A DNA stretch of 28,345 nucleotides from a virus. A program made the position numbers and the translations under genes. The notes under the pieces are model-generated. The model saw only the letters and a program-made list of their open reading frames with translations. It ran no database searches and was not told the DNA's origin. Shown here piece after piece: positions 5,782-28,285 of the stretch. How positions within the stretch are numbered: the stretch's first letter is position 1; each line of letters starts with the position of its first letter. Location: the IMG/VR virus record IMGVR_UViG_3300025151_000217, positions 1 to 28,345 of that record; one strand, 5' to 3'.

Positions 5782-6011
5782 CAGTGTTTCTCCAAAATCT
5801 CTGGGTCAATTTCAGCGTCGTCATTCCATAACACTGGCATACATGCCGCTAGTGATGACTCATCATCAGTCGCGCCAGCATTAATCTCTTGAGCCTTTGC
5901 CATGCAACTCACTGGATCAAGTCGCAGTTCAGCCTCGATAAGTTTTAACTCGCTTTCTGATCCTATCGATACTTTTGTGAAAAGCATAAGGATGTAGATG
6001 TACTGTGTCAT
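5781..6011 (-). CDS. Small phage protein of unknown function
   Basis: This 76-residue acidic protein has a hydrophobic start (YIYILMLFTKVSI) and then a soluble part with SELKLIEAELRLD and a Ser/Asp/Glu-rich end. The ATG overlaps the stop of the upstream gene (ATGA), and its own stop overlaps the next start (TGATG). I do not recognise the family. The N-terminal segment is too short for a confident membrane call. Confidence 0.6.
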   Translation of the reverse strand: MTQYIYILMLFTKVSIGSESELKLIEAELRLDPVSCMAKAQEINAGATDDESSLAACMPVLWNDDAEIDPEILEKH

Positions 6012-6220
6012 GCCGCCGCCTTGCTCAAAAAATTCTTTTTTCTAATTTCTGCCGACTGCTTTGTGCGGAAATTTTTTTCAATCCATGACTTGCCGCCCTC
6101 ATCGCAAAAGGTTACGCACCAGAAACCGCGCAAATCGTCCTTATATACAGTTGCGCCGCGAGGCAGGTTTTCAAAGCTACGCGGATTTTGATATTTCAAT
6201 TTAAATATGATTGGGTTCAT
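6008..6220 (-). CDS. Small basic phage protein of unknown function
   Basis: This 70-residue protein has the pattern G-x-x-VYKDD-x-RGFWCVTF, then a short loop and a helix KQSAEIRKK. A similar strand-strand-helix layout (GLWRTSYF, then MKSARLRVEKE) occurs in the gene at 8573-8812, so the two may be distant paralogues. The ribosome site GAGAGGAGAGAGACT precedes the ATG and belongs to a leader repeated before several small genes. It ends in Ala-Ala-Ala with TGA rather than with the hairpin found in its neighbours. Confidence 0.65.
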   Translation of the reverse strand: MNPIIFKLKYQNPRSFENLPRGATVYKDDLRGFWCVTFCDEGGKSWIEKNFRTKQSAEIRKKNFLSKAAA

Positions 6221-6240
6221 AGTCTCTCTCCTCTCAGAGA

Positions 6241-6254
6241 CGGCTTACGCCGCC
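6241..6254 (-). repeat. Degenerate copy of stop-codon hairpin repeat
   Basis: CGGC-TTAC-GCCG, with one further pair after a mismatch, is a shortened copy of the repeat at 6482, 8291 and 8564. It again sits at the end of a small gene, with the stop codon in the loop and the ribosome-site leader of the next gene (6220) immediately after it. Confidence 0.65.
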
Positions 6255-6457
6255 TTGGTTTTGCGCCATCCGTGTTTACAACGGCGGTCACGCACCCATC
6301 CAAGTTTTTTATATGCAATATCTGCTAGAAGATGTCCGTCCTCACCTACAAATTTAAGCGGCACAGGATAGCCAAACGCTTCACTATCCACAACCACAAT
6401 TCCAGATTTGCCATCACATGCAACTGCAAGTTTTTTGTAATTACTATAACCAATCAT
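6245..6457 (-). CDS. Small basic phage protein of unknown function
   Basis: This 70-residue protein has an N-terminal half with alternating hydrophobic strands (KLAVACDGKSGIVVVDSEA) and a basic C-terminus (RDRRCKHGWRKTKAA) that may bind nucleic acid. An AAGGAG site lies 8 bases before the ATG. The last codons and TAA stop lie in a degenerate copy of the repeated hairpin. I do not recognise the family. Confidence 0.65.
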   Translation of the reverse strand: MIGYSNYKKLAVACDGKSGIVVVDSEAFGYPVPLKFVGEDGHLLADIAYKKLGWVRDRRCKHGWRKTKAA

Positions 6458-6481
6458 TTAAGTCTCCTTGAGTTTATTGTC

Positions 6482-6501
6482 GAGGCGGCTTACGCCGCCT
6501 C
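6482..6501 (-). repeat. Stop-codon hairpin repeat, copy 2
   Basis: GAGGCGGC (6482-6489) and GCCGCCTC (6494-6501) form a perfect 8-bp stem. On the mRNA the four-base loop is GTAA, a GNRA-type tetraloop that contains the TAA stop of the upstream gene (6490-6993). No U-run follows, so it is not a rho-independent terminator. Confidence 0.8.
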
Positions 6502-6993
6502 CTTTACATTTACTAGTGTTCTTGTGTGTAATCTTTGAATGTTATAGCCACCTGCTATAATAACTTTAATTGTTACATTGTGACCTGCGATTACAAAGCT
6601 ACCAGTAACTCCATCGCTTTTATGCTCTAATTCAAAGTCTGGAAGTTCAGTAACGCCGATTTTTTCCAGCGCATTAATAATTGTGGCATCTCTGCTTTCA
6701 ATCAATTTTTGAACATTTTTTTCAATAAAGTTCGGGTTGCTTATATTATTGTAAACAGTTTTGCCGCCACAAATTTTCCATAATTCAAAAAGTAACTGCT
6801 CTTTTTCTTGAATTGGACGCATCATATAAGCGTGTTCATTTTCGCCAGTTGCTTCCATCCAATTAGCTTTATTTGCTTTTCTGTGTTCTGACATTTCCTT
6901 GCAAACATTAGATTTCCATGCAAGCTGACGCTCTAACATCTGTGAATTAAGGTCTGCAAATGCCTTATTAAGTTGCTCTTTAATGTTTGTCAT
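6490..6993 (-). CDS. Phage protein of unknown function, first gene after an early promoter
   Basis: This 167-residue protein has a helical, charged N-terminal half (residues 1-100) and a beta-rich end, GSFVIAGHNVTIKVIIAGGY followed by NIQRLHTRTLVNV. I recall closing phrases of the kind NIQxxHxRTLV from other phage proteins of unknown role. It is the first gene after the promoter/operator at 7016-7058, which suggests early, regulated expression. The ribosome site is GAGAGGAGAGAGGCT before the ATG. Its TAA stop lies in the loop of a perfect hairpin. Confidence 0.7.
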   Translation of the reverse strand: MTNIKEQLNKAFADLNSQMLERQLAWKSNVCKEMSEHRKANKANWMEATGENEHAYMMRPIQEKEQLLFELWKICGGKTVYNNISNPNFIEKNVQKLIESRDATIINALEKIGVTELPDFELEHKSDGVTGSFVIAGHNVTIKVIIAGGYNIQRLHTRTLVNVKEAA

Positions 6994-7015
6994 AGCCTCT
7001 CTCCTCTCTCTATTA

Positions 7016-7058
7016 GTGACTATATGTTACATATTAAGCATTTGTGACTGTTCGTCAA
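7016..7058 (-). promoter_or_regulatory. Sigma70-type promoter with operator, copy 1
   Basis: On the minus strand TTGACG (7053-7058) and TAATAT (7031-7036) are separated by 16 bases. Just downstream of the -10 box lies the imperfect dyad GTGAC-TATAT-GTTAC (7016-7030, plus-strand reading), and a further GTGAC half-site (7044-7048) lies in the spacer. The same arrangement recurs at 8834-8877. It would drive the genes from 6993 leftward and could be bound by the small HTH protein at 7413-7631. It fills the gap 6994-7081. Confidence 0.78.
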
Positions 7059-7081
7059 CAACTATTTTAAATTTTTTTTAA

Positions 7082-7438
7082 CTAAATTCCTGCCTTGTTT
7101 ATCGTTACTCGACAGCCATCTAAGTTTTCTTCCCAGTAAACTGTTAAGTGCCATGCCAGCGAGTCATCCTCTATTACACGGACTCTTTCCAGAACATCCA
7201 GCACAGCCTTGATCCGATTATCTATGTCCATCTTTCTTTTGCTTGGTCTGCCCATCGCAATCTCGATGGCAAATGGATAATTAATCAATGGTGGAACACG
7301 ATTGGCAAAATACTCTTCACACTTGCCTATCCACTCAAGATATTTTTTTGAGCGATACATCCTAGCCCTGCCAGCTCTCCACAATGAGTTTACGCTTGGC
7401 GGCAATGGCAAATTATACTGATAGATTTTTGCGCTCAA
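7082..7438 (-). CDS. rusA: RusA-family Holliday junction resolvase
   Basis: This 118-residue protein has the usual RusA length and signature: an N-terminal LPLPPSVNSLWR, then MDIDNRIKAVLDVL (70-83) with the metal-binding Asp residues D71, D73 and D81, and VIEDDS (88-93) with D91 and D92. RusA dimers cut four-way DNA junctions, resolving recombination or replication intermediates before packaging. The start appears to be TTG at 7438, preceded by GAGGTGG; the next ATG would remove 26 conserved residues. It overlaps the HTH gene by 26 bases. A promoter lies directly downstream, so it is likely the last gene of its transcript unless there is read-through. Confidence 0.9.
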   Translation of the reverse strand: MSAKIYQYNLPLPPSVNSLWRAGRARMYRSKKYLEWIGKCEEYFANRVPPLINYPFAIEIAMGRPSKRKMDIDNRIKAVLDVLERVRVIEDDSLAWHLTVYWEENLDGCRVTINKAGI

Positions 7439-7631
7439 GCATCCACCTCTTGCTCATGCAGTCCCAAGTGACTTCATGCTTAGTAGCTTTTTCTATTTCG
7501 TGCATGGTCAAAACAGAAGGCATCCTCTTGCCAGATCGGTAGTAAGAAACGGCTGACCTAGTGACTCCGATTTTTTTAGCCATAGCCTCATCAGTCAGGT
7601 TTTCTCGTTCCATGTATTCTTCCAAGGTCAT
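7413..7631 (-). CDS. Small XRE/Cro-like HTH regulator
   Basis: This 72-residue protein is mostly one helix-turn-helix domain: LTDEAMAKKIGVTRSAVSYY (12-31) followed by RSGKRMPSV, the typical XRE/Cro pattern in which the second helix (TRSAVSYYR) reads DNA. At this size it lacks a dimerisation or cleavage domain, so it is closer to Cro than to CI. The twin operators at 7016-7030 and 8834-8848 flank the small-gene array that contains it and are natural candidate targets. It overlaps the upstream gene by 41 bases and RusA by 26. Confidence 0.85.
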   Translation of the reverse strand: MTLEEYMERENLTDEAMAKKIGVTRSAVSYYRSGKRMPSVLTMHEIEKATKHEVTWDCMSKRWMLERKNLSV

Positions 7632-7788
7632 TTAATATCTCTTTCTTTTTGAGGCAGTAAACCCCATCCATTCCTAATCCAAATACTTTCTTAGCGTTAT
7701 TTCTACGCAAAAATCTTTCACAAATATGGCTGACAGCACAGCCATCATTACAACAGCCCCACTCAAGTCTTGCTTCTGTATTGACCAA
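7591..7788 (-). CDS. Small Cys-rich protein of unknown function (TTG start)
   Basis: This 65-residue protein has CCNDGC at residues 12-17, then H21 and C23 in SHICERF, and C45 further on, so it could bind zinc or an iron-sulfur centre. The only start that retains the Cys cluster appears to be TTG at 7788, preceded by AGGGA. It overlaps the genes on both sides (26 and 41 bases), which fits coupled translation but also means the frame is not proven. Without it, a 131-base hole would be left in a tightly packed operon. Confidence 0.55.
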   Translation of the reverse strand: MVNTEARLEWGCCNDGCAVSHICERFLRRNNAKKVFGLGMDGVYCLKKKEILNDLGRIHGTRKPD

Positions 7789-7975
7789 GTAAGTCAGTCC
7801 CTTCGCGTAAAATATTCATTAAAGCACCTTCGCTCACTGCGTAAACTCTAAACACCTCATCACTACCCATAACACAAATTTCTGCTGGATAATTATCCTC
7901 TGGCGATGGTCGTAATGTTACCAGTGTCTTTGATTTAATTTTATTCGTTGTTTCTGATTTCACTTCTTCTGTCAT
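7763..7975 (-). CDS. Small acidic protein of unknown function
   Basis: From the ATG at 7975 this gene encodes 70 residues. The N-terminus is charged (TEEVKSETTNKIKSK) and is followed by short strands (TLVTLRPSPEDNYPAEICVM). The ATG overlaps the TGA of the tiny membrane-protein gene upstream (ATGA). A longer reading from TTG at 7987 is possible but less likely. I do not recognise the family. Confidence 0.6.
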   Translation of the reverse strand: MTEEVKSETTNKIKSKTLVTLRPSPEDNYPAEICVMGSDEVFRVYAVSEGALMNILREGTDLLGQYRSKT

Positions 7976-8058
7976 AGTATCCACCAAAATAAATATGCAA
8001 CTGCAAAGTTTGATAATAACGCAATCAGCGCAAATATGTCACCTTTGTTAATATTCAT
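7972..8058 (-). CDS. 28-residue membrane peptide
   Basis: This very short gene encodes MNINKGDIFALIALLSNF followed by a hydrophobic end AVAYLFWWIL. One membrane helix covers about residues 8-28, with a polar N-terminus. It has one of the best ribosome sites of the genome, TAGGAGG seven bases before the ATG, and its TGA overlaps the next ATG (ATGA). The strong site supports real translation; alternatively it serves to load ribosomes for the downstream gene. Function unknown. Confidence 0.6.
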   Translation of the reverse strand: MNINKGDIFALIALLSNFAVAYLFWWIL

Positions 8059-8069
8059 AGTATTTCCTC

Positions 8070-8273
8070 CTAATCGCAACTTGTGGCTCTTGTAATCTGA
8101 CAAGTTGTCGATGTTTCAAATGTGATCCGTGTGTCATAACCAAAATGACCATAGGCATCAAAATATTTTCTAACTCCACGCTGTTTGGCTTCTGGCGTTT
8201 CTCCAATAATCTCGACAGTAACCTTGCGCTGGTTGTTCAGCACAGTGTAAATTTTATAATCTTCGTTAGCCAT
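8070..8273 (-). CDS. Small phage protein of unknown function
   Basis: This 67-residue protein looks like an alpha/beta fold: KIYTVLNNQRKVTVEIIGE strands, a short helix (PEAKQRGVRKYFDAY), then a beta end (DTRITFETSTTCQITRA). The ribosome site GAGAGGAGAAA lies just before the ATG and directly follows the hairpin repeat at 8291-8310. Its TAG stop overlaps the ribosome site of the next, tiny gene. I do not recognise the family. Confidence 0.65.
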   Translation of the reverse strand: MANEDYKIYTVLNNQRKVTVEIIGETPEAKQRGVRKYFDAYGHFGYDTRITFETSTTCQITRATSCD

Positions 8274-8290
8274 TATGATTTCTCCTCTCG

Positions 8291-8310
8291 GAGGCGGCTT
8301 ACGCCGCCTC
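8291..8310 (-). repeat. Stop-codon hairpin repeat, copy 3
   Basis: A perfect 8-bp stem, GAGGCGGC (8291-8298) with GCCGCCTC (8303-8310), encloses a loop that carries the TAA of the gene at 8299-8550. The 30 bases 8281-8310, which include the ribosome-site leader of the next gene, are identical to 8555-8584. Confidence 0.85.
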
Positions 8311-8550
8311 TATTACTTTTAAATAATCTTCACGACTGTCATAAATCACACCACCGCGTGATAGATACTTGCCAGCGCGTTCTGCTAAAGCCCATAATAT
8401 TGCAGTATCTTCGTCATTCGTAATATACCAATCACTACGCGCCCTAGGATATTTAGTTCCATTGACAATTACTCTAAACGCAGTTTGCATATCAGTATTT
8501 TGCTCTAAGACCTTAATATTAATTTGTCTGTGTGTGGATGTTTTTAACAT
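8299..8550 (-). CDS. Small phage protein of unknown function
   Basis: From the ATG at 8550 this gene encodes 83 residues. Earlier in-frame codons reach 8643, but they run through the hairpin repeat and the ribosome site GAGAGGAGAGACT that lies just before 8550, so the shorter form is preferred. The protein has an alpha/beta look (TAFRVIVNGTKY, then a helix DTAILWALAERAGKY). It ends in IEAA, with the stop in the hairpin loop. I do not recognise it. Confidence 0.65.
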   Translation of the reverse strand: MLKTSTHRQINIKVLEQNTDMQTAFRVIVNGTKYPRARSDWYITNDEDTAILWALAERAGKYLSRGGVIYDSREDYLKVIEAA

Positions 8551-8563
8551 AGTCTCTCCTCTC

Positions 8564-8585
8564 GGAGGCGGCTTACGCCGCCTCC
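8564..8585 (-). repeat. Stop-codon hairpin repeat, copy 4 (longest stem)
   Basis: GGAGGCGGC (8564-8572) and GCCGCCTCC (8577-8585) form a perfect 9-bp stem with a four-base loop (GTAA on the mRNA) that contains the stop codon of the gene at 8573-8812. The ribosome site of the next gene follows within about 10 bases. Confidence 0.85.
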
Positions 8586-8812
8586 TGTTCTTTAGACCAA
8601 CGCTCAAACTCGGTAAGCTCTTTTTCGACCCTAAGTCTAGCACTTTTCATTGAATAAAAGGTTTGCTGTCCTAGACGAGTCTTAGGAAAATAGCTTGTGC
8701 GCCATAGCCCATCAGATGGCAGTTTATAAAAATCAATATACTGACCTTTATATTCTGTTTCCCAAATTCCGCGACGACGTTTGGTCAATTTTAGCTTTAC
8801 TTTTTCTGTCAT
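8573..8812 (-). CDS. Small basic phage protein, first gene after second early promoter
   Basis: This 79-residue protein shows the order strand (GIWETEYKGQYIDFY), GLWRTSYF, and a helix MKSARLRVEKELTEFERW, resembling a small beta-sheet plus helix DNA-binding module and the gene at 6008-6220. It ends in EQEAA with the stop in the loop of the hairpin repeat. An AAGGAGA site lies 8-9 bases before the ATG. The promoter at 8834-8877 lies directly upstream, so it should be among the first genes expressed. Function unknown. Confidence 0.65.
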   Translation of the reverse strand: MTEKVKLKLTKRRRGIWETEYKGQYIDFYKLPSDGLWRTSYFPKTRLGQQTFYSMKSARLRVEKELTEFERWSKEQEAA

Positions 8813-8833: not shown

Positions 8834-8877
8834 GTGACTATACGTTACATTAAATAGTAATTGTGACTATTCGTCAA
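8834..8877 (-). promoter_or_regulatory. Sigma70-type promoter with operator, copy 2
   Basis: On the minus strand TTGACG (8872-8877) and TTTAAT (8849-8854) are separated by 17 bases. GTGAC-TATAC-GTTAC (8834-8848, plus-strand reading) lies immediately downstream of the -10 box, and a GTGAC half-site (8863-8867) lies in the spacer. It closely matches the element at 7016-7058 and would start transcription into the small-gene array from 8812. It occupies the gap 8813-8902 between the lysis genes and the early genes. Confidence 0.78.
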
Positions 8878-8902
8878 CAGCTATTTTTTTTAATAAAAAC
8901 GA

Positions 8903-16331: not shown

Positions 16332-17828
16332 TTAATTACCCAGTGCTTTAGAGAACGAGCCTCCACGCATCCTAGCTTCTGCGACAGCCGATTTTGTGGC
16401 TTCGGCTATTTGAGGCATAAGCGAGGCTATTTCGGTTCTTACTGTTTGCTGAACCCCTGTTGACAGGTTTATAGTTTGATTAACCACTACACCAGAGCCA
16501 CCGCCCAGCTTGTCATTAGGGATGATTGCTCCTGATTGGTTCGGCACAAAAAGTTCTTTGCCTCGCTCTCCTACCATATAAGGCTGACCTCTTTGCACAG
16601 CACCGCCGATAGCTTTGCCGCCACCGAAAAAACCATCAAACGCACCAGCTATTGCACCAGTTATAGTTCTTTGAATAAATATTCTGGCTAAGTCGGCGAT
16701 AATGCTTTGAGCCATAGACTTAAAAGCGTCTTTGGCTTTCATAGTGCCTGTCATAACGCCGACCAAGCCATCCTCTAAACTTTGCAATCCTTTAAATGCG
16801 GCATTTTTTAGATTAGCCTCAACATCTTTTGATGCCTCCGCATAATCCTTAAAACTTTTATTAGCTTTTTCTACTGCGGTCTGCTGTCTAGTAAATCCGT
16901 CTGCAACATTGCTAACTGAGTTGCCTAGCGCATTAGTAGGCTCAACAACTGTTTCTAAATTTTGCCTAATTCTTTCTATATCTTTTTGAAAGCTCTCACC
17001 GAATGTAAACTGGTCTAAATCATTTTCTTTAAAAAAGTTTATAATTTCTACGCCAGCATTTGCTAAAGCTCTTAATGCGCCAATAGTTTTAGATATTGAA
17101 AGCAAAACAACACTTGTAACCACAGTGCCTATTGAGGCTAAAGCTGGCATGAGTGTTGCCGTTATCTGTTGTCCGATAGAGCCAAATATCCTAAACAGCT
17201 TATCAAACCTATCGTTAGCCGCTTCTACCGCTTGAGCCTGTTCGCCTGTTAATTCTATCGTTACTAAATTAAACTGATCGCGCAATGCCTCTAAGCTACC
17301 AGAGCCATTTTGCAACATATTGACCATGCCAGCTCCAGCGCGACCAAATAAATCCATAGCAATACGAACTCTATCAGCAGGATTTTCAATCTGAGTAAAT
17401 CCGTTAGCAACTTCATTAAGCAAATCATTGCTAGTTTTTAGAGTCCCATCATTATTCGTTAGGGTAATTCCAAGCGCATCAAAGGCTCTAATCCCAGTGC
17501 CTACACCAGTTGATGCTTCTGATATGGATTTTGTAAAACGCTCAAAACCTTTTTTTAGTTCTTCTGCGCCAGTGCCTGATTGACTAGCCGCAAATTGTAA
17601 GGTCTGAAGTTGGTTAACAGTGATGCCGAGTCTTGCAGATTGCTTTGCAAGGTCATCAATATCTCCTGCAAACTTTTTTAAAGCTAGTGTGCCAGCTAAA
17701 CCTGTTACCGCGCCTTTAACAGAAAAGACTGATTTTTTAACTCTATTTAGACCGCCAGCAACTGACCTAAACGCATCTCGCGTTTTGTCCATCGCCGTGA
17801 TTCGAATACTTAGTTTTTCATCAGCCAT
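16332..17828 (-). CDS. Tail tape measure protein
   Basis: This 498-residue protein has the usual tape-measure features: long helices, hydrophobic segments in the middle (IGTVVTSVVLLSISKTIGAL, about 232-251), and a C-terminal block with AIAGAFDGFFGGGKAIGGAV and the conserved PYMVGERGKELFVPNQSGAI-type signature. It sets tail length: at about 0.15 nm per residue the tail would be near 75 nm, half of lambda. Its ATG overlaps the end of the -1 frame of the chaperone gene, as in lambda T/H. Confidence 0.92.
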   Translation of the reverse strand: MADEKLSIRITAMDKTRDAFRSVAGGLNRVKKSVFSVKGAVTGLAGTLALKKFAGDIDDLAKQSARLGITVNQLQTLQFAASQSGTGAEELKKGFERFTKSISEASTGVGTGIRAFDALGITLTNNDGTLKTSNDLLNEVANGFTQIENPADRVRIAMDLFGRAGAGMVNMLQNGSGSLEALRDQFNLVTIELTGEQAQAVEAANDRFDKLFRIFGSIGQQITATLMPALASIGTVVTSVVLLSISKTIGALRALANAGVEIINFFKENDLDQFTFGESFQKDIERIRQNLETVVEPTNALGNSVSNVADGFTRQQTAVEKANKSFKDYAEASKDVEANLKNAAFKGLQSLEDGLVGVMTGTMKAKDAFKSMAQSIIADLARIFIQRTITGAIAGAFDGFFGGGKAIGGAVQRGQPYMVGERGKELFVPNQSGAIIPNDKLGGGSGVVVNQTINLSTGVQQTVRTEIASLMPQIAEATKSAVAEARMRGGSFSKALGN

Positions 17829-26645: not shown

Positions 26646-27072
26646 TGACGTTTTCCTTTAAAATCTTTTTTGCTTCAGTTATGTCGTTAGCCGCGAATAC
26701 TGTGGTCGCCGCTTTTGTTGGGACAGATAACACTCTAGAGCGCATATTGGATACCATAACCTCCCACGCATCTTTTACATCCTGCGCTGGTATCAAGTCG
26801 TTTGACATCTGTTCGCGTTCCATCTCAGCCATATCAGCTTTTGCTTTTGTAAGCCTTGCGCGATGTGCCGCATAATCATCACCGCCGACATCGCTGTTAA
26901 CCGCCTTCTGCCGCAAGTAATGAATATAAGCGCGGACGACAGGAACAAGTTCATATCTACCGCGAGCCGCCTTTGGCAATACGCCATCTTTTGCAAGCTG
27001 GTTAACTCTGCGCTCTGTTAAATCTAATAGCTTTGCGACTGTTGCGAGTGGAACTGTATTATTTGCCGCCAT
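26515..27072 (-). CDS. Small terminase subunit (Nu1-like)
   Basis: This 185-residue protein begins with a winged-helix DNA-binding domain (VPLATVAKLLDLTERRVNQL at 7-26, then a GRYELVPVVRAYIHYL strand-helix), like lambda Nu1, which binds cosB. A long charged helix follows (AAHRARLTKAKADMAEMERE) and a central helical domain contains MSNMRSRVLSVPTKAATTVF. The C-terminal part (after about residue 142) overlaps the large terminase gene in another frame. Its ATG overlaps the last codons of the methyltransferase fusion by 14 bases, with GGAG a few bases upstream. Confidence 0.88.
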   Translation of the reverse strand: MAANNTVPLATVAKLLDLTERRVNQLAKDGVLPKAARGRYELVPVVRAYIHYLRQKAVNSDVGGDDYAAHRARLTKAKADMAEMEREQMSNDLIPAQDVKDAWEVMVSNMRSRVLSVPTKAATTVFAANDITEAKKILKENVNEALAELAAVEVKTANPIRSSIVEPDNGANDEGTSSTARVKNK

Positions 27073-28285
27073 CGCGCTCCGCTTTCATTTCGTTAAATGT
27101 TTTGCCTGTTTCTGCGTGGACTGCTTCCTTGCCTGTGAAGTCTTGCCAGCGTTTTATGATTACATCAACATAAACTTCATCTAGTTCCATCATGCGACAA
27201 TTCCGACCAGTTTTTTGACATGCTAAAAGTGTTGAGCCAGAGCCGCCAAATAGGTCAACTATATTTTTTTCATTATTAAATTCTAATAATATTTTTTCTG
27301 ATAGAAGAACAGGCTTTTGAGTTGGATGAACTCTTTTACCACTTTCACCCTCTCTATTCATTCCGTCCCATGTGACTTTGTATTTTTTTACAACTATCCC
27401 CTTAATGTTCGACCATGCTAATTCACAATCTGAGAAAGATGTGCCTTCACCTCTATTCTTATCCCAGACAAACCATCTTCCACCTATCGGTAATTTGTCA
27501 TTGTAATAATTTGCTCCCCATAAAATATATTTTGCATCAGGAAAAGATAAAAAAATATGTGATGGATTATATTCATCATCATCACCAATCACCGCCTTAT
27601 ATTCGGCGGCTTGAACTTTATTAGCTCCGCAAATTGTCCCATTTCTTGCTTTAGCTCCGCCAATTGTCCCATTTCTTGCTTTAGCTCCGCCAACAACACT
27701 GATTCCATAAGGCGGATCGGTAAAAACCATATCAGCCTTGTTGCCATCCATCAATTTATCAACCGCATCAACACTAGTGCTGTCACCACACATGAGCCGA
27801 TGATTGCCAAGCGTCCAGATGTCACCTAACACGCTCACTGGCTCATCAGGTAACTCAGGCACATCATCCTCATCGGTAAAGCCTTCTACGGCTTCGGTTA
27901 ACATGCCGTTAAGTTCGTCATCATCAAAGCCTGTAAGCAATAAATCATAATCCAGATTATCAAGGTCAGAAAGTTCAAGCCTTAACAAATCCAAATCCCA
28001 CTCAGCCTCTTGGCTAACCCTGTTGTCTGCGATCCGATACGCCTTCACTTGTGCATCAGTTAAATCTTCTGCAATTTGAACTGGCACTTTATCCATGCCT
28101 AAAGTTCTAGCCGCTTCTAAACGTGTATGCCCTGCGATAACCACCATATCCTTATCGACCACGATAGGCTGTTGCCACCCAAATTCTTTTAAACTAGCGG
28201 AAACCTTCGCTATTGCCGCTTTATTTTGTCGTGGATTGCGGACGTATGGGATAGCCTCTTCAATTTTTACTGTTTTAATTTTCAT
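27059..28285 (-). CDS. ParB/sulfiredoxin-like domain fused to DNA methyltransferase
   Basis: This 408-residue protein has an N-terminal ParB-like nuclease/Srx domain (residues 3-105; PYVRNPRQ, IVVDKDMVVIAGHTRLEAAR with GHTR at 52-55) and a beta-class methylase. Catalytic motif IV is DPPYG (190-194), indicating N6-adenine (or N4-cytosine) methylation, and the SAM site is LFGGSGST (345-352). Such fusions are common beside phage terminase genes. A 30-bp tandem repeat inserts extra residues at about 199-220, directly after motif IV. It is the first gene after the right cos end; AAGGG lies about 10 bases before the ATG. Confidence 0.92.
   Translation of the reverse strand: MKIKTVKIEEAIPYVRNPRQNKAAIAKVSASLKEFGWQQPIVVDKDMVVIAGHTRLEAARTLGMDKVPVQIAEDLTDAQVKAYRIADNRVSQEAEWDLDLLRLELSDLDNLDYDLLLTGFDDDELNGMLTEAVEGFTDEDDVPELPDEPVSVLGDIWTLGNHRLMCGDSTSVDAVDKLMDGNKADMVFTDPPYGISVVGGAKARNGTIGGAKARNGTICGANKVQAAEYKAVIGDDDEYNPSHIFLSFPDAKYILWGANYYNDKLPIGGRWFVWDKNRGEGTSFSDCELAWSNIKGIVVKKYKVTWDGMNREGESGKRVHPTQKPVLLSEKILLEFNNEKNIVDLFGGSGSTLLACQKTGRNCRMMELDEVYVDVIIKRWQDFTGKEAVHAETGKTFNEMKAERDGGK
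27621..27692 (-). repeat. 30-bp tandem repeat, 2.4 copies, inside methyltransferase gene
   Basis: Two 30-base units (27621-27650 and 27651-27680) differ at one base, and a partial third copy runs to 27692. The unit is ten codons long (GGAKARNGTI and a variant), so the frame is kept. It directly follows the catalytic DPPYG motif of the protein. Confidence 0.95.

Follow-up and report, generated by a model that had tools for sequence, protein, structure and literature searches.

Hairpins with the stop codon in the tetraloop as putative cistron boundaries in bacterial viruses

Four stop-codon hairpins among small genes

The IMG/VR virus record IMGVR_UViG_3300025151_000217, analysed over its whole length of 28,345 bases (hereafter the window), encodes a gpA-type terminase that is closest, among isolated phages, to those of the CRP group of Roseobacter phages (58% identity). 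Within a stretch of small genes, all coded on the minus strand, lie four copies of a hairpin that carries the stop codon of the preceding gene in its tetraloop. The loop is GUAA in all four; its TAA is the stop of the open reading frame (ORF), and the two codons before it, which are Ala-Ala in all four ORFs, as a sequence-only reading of this DNA had said, account for most of the 5' arm. Behind the noncoding 3' arm come a Shine-Dalgarno (SD) sequence and the next start. The core GGCGGCGTAAGCCGCC (GGCGGC-GTAA-GCCGCC) is present exactly at 6484–6499, 8293–8308 and 8567–8582 and with one change, which gives a G·U pair, at 6239–6254 (all on the minus strand, as are the features in the following paragraph).

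Hairpin 1 (8564–8585; GGAGGCGGC-GUAA-GCCGCCUCC, 9 bp) closes, with its TAA at 8573–8575, a gene for 79 amino acids (8573–8812) whose product ends EAA. The SD sequence GAGAGGAGA behind it (8555–8563) belongs to a gene for 83 amino acids (8299–8550), which also ends EAA and is closed in turn by hairpin 2 (8291–8310; GAGGCGGC-GUAA-GCCGCCUC, 8 bp; TAA at 8299–8301); a second GAGAGGAGA (8281–8289) then precedes a gene for 67 amino acids (8070–8273). Hairpin 3 (6482–6501) has the same form as hairpin 2, again with 8 bp, and closes with its TAA at 6490–6492 a gene for 167 amino acids (6490–6993) of the GGYNIQ family of T4-like and other phages, to which an Ala-Ala tail is fused; the SD sequence of the next gene, which encodes 70 amino acids ending KAA (6245–6457), is AAGGAG (6464–6469) and is set further from the hairpin. 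This gene ends in hairpin 4 (6239–6254; GGCGGC-GUAA-GCCGUC, 6 bp including one G-U pair; TAA at 6245–6247), the weakest fold of the four, behind which GAGAGGAGA (6227–6235) precedes a gene for 70 amino acids (6008–6220) that ends without such a hairpin and overlaps the next ATG with its 3' end. Family searches with the small proteins of the window, among them those of 79, 83 and 67 amino acids, gave no match.

The core search and shuffling show the repeated hairpin to be real: in shuffled sequences the core matched 0.07 times on average and the 8 reported matches were never reached. The sequence-only reading had placed the four copies correctly to within two bases, and its 30-base identity between 8281–8310 and 8555–8584 was found again. 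Two of its statements hold in part: the genes of 79, 83 and 70 amino acids are small, whereas the gene of 167 amino acids is not very small, and the ribosome site that it named, GAGAGGAGA, follows three of the four copies, whereas the copy at 6484 has AAGGAG at a greater distance. The three copies with perfect stems (8, 8 and 9 bp) gave z scores of −6.5, −3.1 and −3.5 in RNA folding. Rfam 15 had no match in the window at gathering score.

Occurrence in other viruses

When IMG/VR was scanned for the exact core, at least 119 stretches were found, with 103 distinct contexts among the matches listed. Of these 103, 88 close an ORF (a minimum of 40 codons was required unless the frame ran to the contig edge), and just downstream of 67 of the 88 there are also an SD sequence and a start. 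The carrier contigs are heterogeneous, with a GC content from 0.38 to 0.68, and the large proteins sampled from them (primases, a helicase, a tail fibre and structural proteins) belong to different families or to none. The core is common to many unrelated bacterial viruses known from environmental DNA. An element of host genomes can be rejected, since the motif is rare there: bacterial and archaeal genomes totalling 257 Gb contain it, together with an SD sequence and ATG, just 21 times, and about 7 of these matches (a third) are at ORF ends. Among known phages there is a parallel in the sequenced Phage C72C1 (gene 17289–17597), the other matches of short-query BLAST being mostly weak. In the open-access literature, which misses most subscription journals, no description of stop-codon tetraloop hairpins was found.

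The search for the consensus that the sequence-only reading had proposed found the core at gene ends in unrelated phages, but not in the records of 30 terminase relatives; vertical inheritance with the structural genes was rejected on this ground, many of these records being fragments. The nearest relative found, a 6.6-kb IMG/VR contig (L393) with a 97% identical terminase, carries no copy. Close relatives covering the small genes of the window were not found, and searches for related loci via gene 6490–6993 and via an exonuclease alignment also gave none.

Pairing and loop preference

For a covariation scan of IMG/VR (80 listed rows) the pattern GGCNGCNTAAGCNGCCC was used, in which one stem pair and one loop base are free. 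Among the matches listed, the pair was of the Watson-Crick type at 37 of the 38 sites that lie at a gene end and are followed by an SD sequence (CG 22, GC 12, TA 2, AT 1), and at only 14 of the 31 sites away from gene ends (Fisher p = 6e-7 versus gene ends). An earlier scan without the G-C pair gave 56 Watson-Crick pairs, 2 G·U pairs and 2 mismatches at 60 gene-end sites with SD sequence. It should be noted that the stem base left free and the first base of the loop both fall on wobble positions of Ala codons, so that changes in them are synonymous. The sequence-only reading had named a lack of compensatory changes as grounds for giving the element up; at gene ends paired changes are the rule, and the homologues of gene 6490–6993 have different stems.

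The loops of the 38 gene-end sites were GTAA in 29, ATAA in 7, CTAA in 2 and TTAA in none, and a G before TAA is enriched relative to sites away from gene ends (p = 0.003). In 27 non-seed hairpins at gene ends with SD sequence the loop was GTAA in 14 and TTAG in 9, whereas the two together make up about 15% of background gene ends; UUAG is used where the stop is UAG. Both are stable tetraloops, GUAA being a member of the GNRA class and UUAG conforming to YNMG. Loops of the GNRA type are favored and not obligatory, a strict requirement being rejected because ATAA loops occur at gene ends, too.

Hairpin and Ala-Ala tail at the end of gene 6490–6993

The family of gene 6490–6993, characterized by the motif AGGYNIQ (165 amino acids, ending ...RVL-KVK), was found in 31 records of isolated phages and has no match in Pfam or PHROG. 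Its members come from T4-like, Rhizobium, Rhodobacter, cyanobacterial and Sphingomonas phages, where a hairpin tends to come next. In 8 of 9 sampled homologues from isolated phages a GC-rich hairpin lies directly after or around the stop; the stems are unrelated, the loops are, e.g., GCGA, UUCG or GAAA, and in the homologue from Rhodobacter phage RcMamaDuck the stop is within the loop region. Homologues with a separate hairpin end in ...K without Ala-Ala, and the fused forms add 3–6 residues ending in AA. In a tree calculated without the tails, the fusion has to be placed at two or more points, one of them on the branch of the window beside Pseudanabaena phage Pan1. The IMG/VR homologues have stems of GGCCGC or GGCGGC and mostly different next genes; they were retrieved via the hairpin motif, so that not their having a hairpin but the stem changes and the differing neighbors count as evidence. 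As hairpins of different sequence stand at the end of this gene and the tail is found only in the fused forms, the Ala-Ala tail looks like a by-product of the hairpin.

The opposite relation, in which GC-rich Ala codons give rise to the hairpin and what is conserved is a C-terminal Ala-Ala (e.g., as a degradation tail of the ClpXP type), is very improbable in our view. Tails of the ssrA type do end in Ala-Ala, nearly all copies of the hairpin close a gene ending in it, and AA is the commonest C-terminal dipeptide in the carrier contigs even when the seed sites are left out. But the downstream arm is noncoding and nevertheless covaries with synonymous wobble bases, many genes ending in AA have no hairpin, and the homologues with a separate hairpin do without the tail. 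The last point also contradicts, for gene 6490–6993, the possibility considered in the sequence-only reading that the copies arise from common C-terminal codons. Chance or a codon by-product was rejected from the shuffles, the wobble-position covariation and the tail comparison together.

Homology breaks at hairpin junctions

At 200 hairpin junctions 90% of the homologous pairs share one side only, versus 44% at the other junctions of the same contigs. The contigs used in these comparisons were IMG/VR contigs chosen through the hairpin, among the matches listed, and the pairs are not independent. When the other side of the same gene served as control, homology broke on the hairpin side alone in 61 pairs and on the other side alone in 8 (18 and 1, respectively, when counted by family). 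With small genes on both sides and 95–100% identity, the neighbor was kept in 17% of the pairs across hairpins versus 82% across plain junctions. These within-gene and small-gene controls lessen the concerns about selection and non-independence without removing them. The family of gene 6490–6993 is an example: its 10 hairpin-ended members have 8 different downstream genes. From these comparisons the hairpins appear to sit where neighboring genes tend to have been swapped, and the exchange of small-gene cassettes suggested in the sequence-only reading is supported as an association.

Such breaks could be due to a recombination or protein-binding site acting at the DNA level at module boundaries, the RNA hairpin being incidental, and the 30-base block identical at two window junctions, which includes the SD sequence, would fit this. 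We nevertheless regard a DNA site as improbable: the loop lacks symmetry and gives a stop when read in the direction of the gene, the stem variants preserve pairing rather than sequence, and the homologues of gene 6490–6993 have hairpins of unrelated sequence at the same place.

Proposed function as a cistron boundary

A GC-rich stem of at least 5 bp followed by a U-run makes an intrinsic terminator. Such stems are present in the window, but a U-run directly past the stem on the coding strand is absent, as had been stated before, and GAGAGGAGA or GACAATAAACTCAAGGAG is found there instead. Three copies were scored as terminator-like by a consensus scanner, on the antisense strand, however, because A-rich codons precede the 5' arm. 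At other phage gene ends versions with a U-run do exist and use the same two loops, and in one 31.9-kb record four successive junctions consist of a hairpin and then an SD sequence and the fifth of a hairpin and then a U-run. In Rhizobium and Sinorhizobium phages (L390 near 4010, L391 near 4009) GGCCGC-GTAA-GCGGCC is followed by a T-run at the end of a primase-type gene, which is a terminator with the stop codon inside the loop.

The window copies could accordingly be translation-gated or decayed intrinsic terminators overlapping the stop, which stay silent within the operon with the U-run gone and the ribosome covering them. In Escherichia coli, termination falls from about 90% to less than 10% once the stop codon has been moved to a position 5 bp ahead of the terminator (PMC4824070), and the hairpins with the same loops that bear U-runs at other gene ends point in the same direction. 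Mere decaying remnants, however, would not keep the stem pair in 37 of 38 gene-end copies, nor would an SD sequence so regularly take the place of the U-run, and we consider a terminator origin of this kind unlikely, though not negligible.

Rather, we consider it on balance probable that the element is a functional RNA hairpin which closes a phage cistron and at which small genes are interchangeable. Since the stop codon lies within the loop, the hairpin has to be melted by any ribosome that translates up to it, and transcription should therefore continue: a ribosome terminating on the loop codon would allow RNA polymerase to read on into the next gene. After release of the ribosome the hairpin would refold, mark and protect the message of the preceding gene at its 3' end and keep this message apart from the next SD sequence. 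Where a U-run follows, it would act as an intrinsic terminator. For phage T4 a CUUCGG hairpin is reported in PMC8948821 to stabilize a transcript, though at its 5' end. Because the boundary would not depend on the flanking genes and is nearly the same short sequence everywhere, recombination over short homologies could exchange small genes there and leave them expressible. The term intergenic punctuation element, used in the sequence-only reading, suits this role well.

Several observations weigh against such a role. The predicted accessibility of the SD sequence is 0.48 in the native form, 0.48 with both arms blocked and 0.38 with the left arm alone blocked; copy 4 folds poorly (z −1.1), and its SD sequence is predicted to pair locally. 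Pairing generally ends at 6 bp in gene-end copies, and loops of ATAA are found at gene ends. The evidence from covariation and from the joints is drawn from other phages rather than from close relatives of the window. The hairpin in the exact form of the window is nearly private, the 20-base version having one other exact match in IMG/VR, on an unrelated contig, and the 30 terminase-relative records without a copy, most of them fragments lacking the early region, also belong here.

Insulation of the SD sequence was considered as the main role and is weakly supported, as folding shows a small effect on the downstream SD sequence. This small predicted effect also speaks against translational coupling, in which the hairpin would control reinitiation at the next start or keep the next SD sequence open. 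The distance from stop to start is short and narrow, as coupling would have it (median 26 nt, 5–95% range 20–43, with the start a median of 17 nt past the 3' arm), but we consider this mechanism improbable. We favor a role as cistron boundary with tolerance for gene exchange.

More tentatively, and with some doubt, one may think of a grammar of phage gene cassettes: unrelated phages would share small accessory genes as units of SD sequence, ORF and hairpin, in which the hairpin is both expression boundary and recombination joint; the cassettes could be strung in any order, the last being closed by the version with a U-run.

Comparison with known elements

Phage T4 and other phages have intercistronic CUUCGG hairpins (Tuerk et al., 1988, as cited in PMC8948821). 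Like those described here, they are small tetraloop hairpins of great stability, located for the most part in the gaps between phage genes, and for one of them mRNA stabilization is reported. The hairpins described here have a similar intergenic or gene-terminal position, but a C(UUCG)G loop is not present: the loop is GUAA or UUAG and contains the stop, the 5' arm is coding, and the hairpins stand directly before an SD sequence and mark joints of gene exchange. With intrinsic terminators that overlap or abut stop codons they share the GC-rich stem at the gene end and the U-run versions of other phages, whereas the window copies have an SD sequence in place of the U-run. The element works like CUUCGG hairpins and terminators, yet has neither the loop of the former nor the U-run of the latter.

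The SAS and ESAS elements of cluster K mycobacteriophages (PMC3203893, PMC11373665) are also short repeats beside the SD sequences of many non-structural genes. However, SAS is a non-palindromic sequence of 13 bp, and the inverted repeats of ESAS give no support for RNA pairing and harbor putative promoters (PMC3203893, PMC11373665). The SAS sequence GGGATAGGAGCCC at the start codon is absent from the sequence after the window hairpins, and departures from pairing as in ESAS are not seen, 37 of 38 gene-end copies being Watson-Crick paired; the pairing covaries, and the element is not limited to one phage cluster.

In mosaic lambdoid phages short conserved boundary or linker sequences lie at module joints where homology breaks. 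Homology also breaks at the hairpins, as found on the IMG/VR hairpin contigs and not on close relatives of the window, but the joint in this case is formed by an RNA hairpin that stands at the end of a single gene and contains its stop codon. In integrons a cassette consists of a small gene and a foldable attC hairpin and is exchanged as a unit. This is an analogy only, since the hairpins are perfect, 16–22 nt long and implicate no integrase; the attC core GTTRRRY/RYYYAAC and extrahelical bases are absent from their short stems.

If the proposed role is correct, mosaic phages would have a searchable nucleotide signature for sites of small-gene exchange, a long-standing question to which the usual answer is merely "illegitimate recombination plus selection." The motif could then also serve to find small accessory, possibly counter-defense, genes in viral dark matter, and there would be one more example of a stop codon that at the same time serves as the loop of an RNA structure under selection.

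Other features

Instead of the stop-codon hairpin, several terminase relatives and the Roseobacter CRP phages have a UUCG or GAAA hairpin behind the capsid gene. A strong hairpin of this kind separates the large capsid gene from the following SD sequence in the terminase relatives L125 (22046), L128 (23559), L129 (22979) and L127 (21421), and the same is found in L427, L455, L465 and L467; it is a separate recurrent intercistronic hairpin.

In the window, the ORF at 27059–28285 holds two tandem 30-base units that are 97% identical (27621–27680). Ahead of both small-gene operons lies a nearly identical repeat (7037–7068 and 8856–8887, 88%) with the motifs TTGACG and TAGTCAC/GTGACTA. It resembles a common promoter-operator, for which the helix-turn-helix regulator encoded at 7413–7631 is a candidate.

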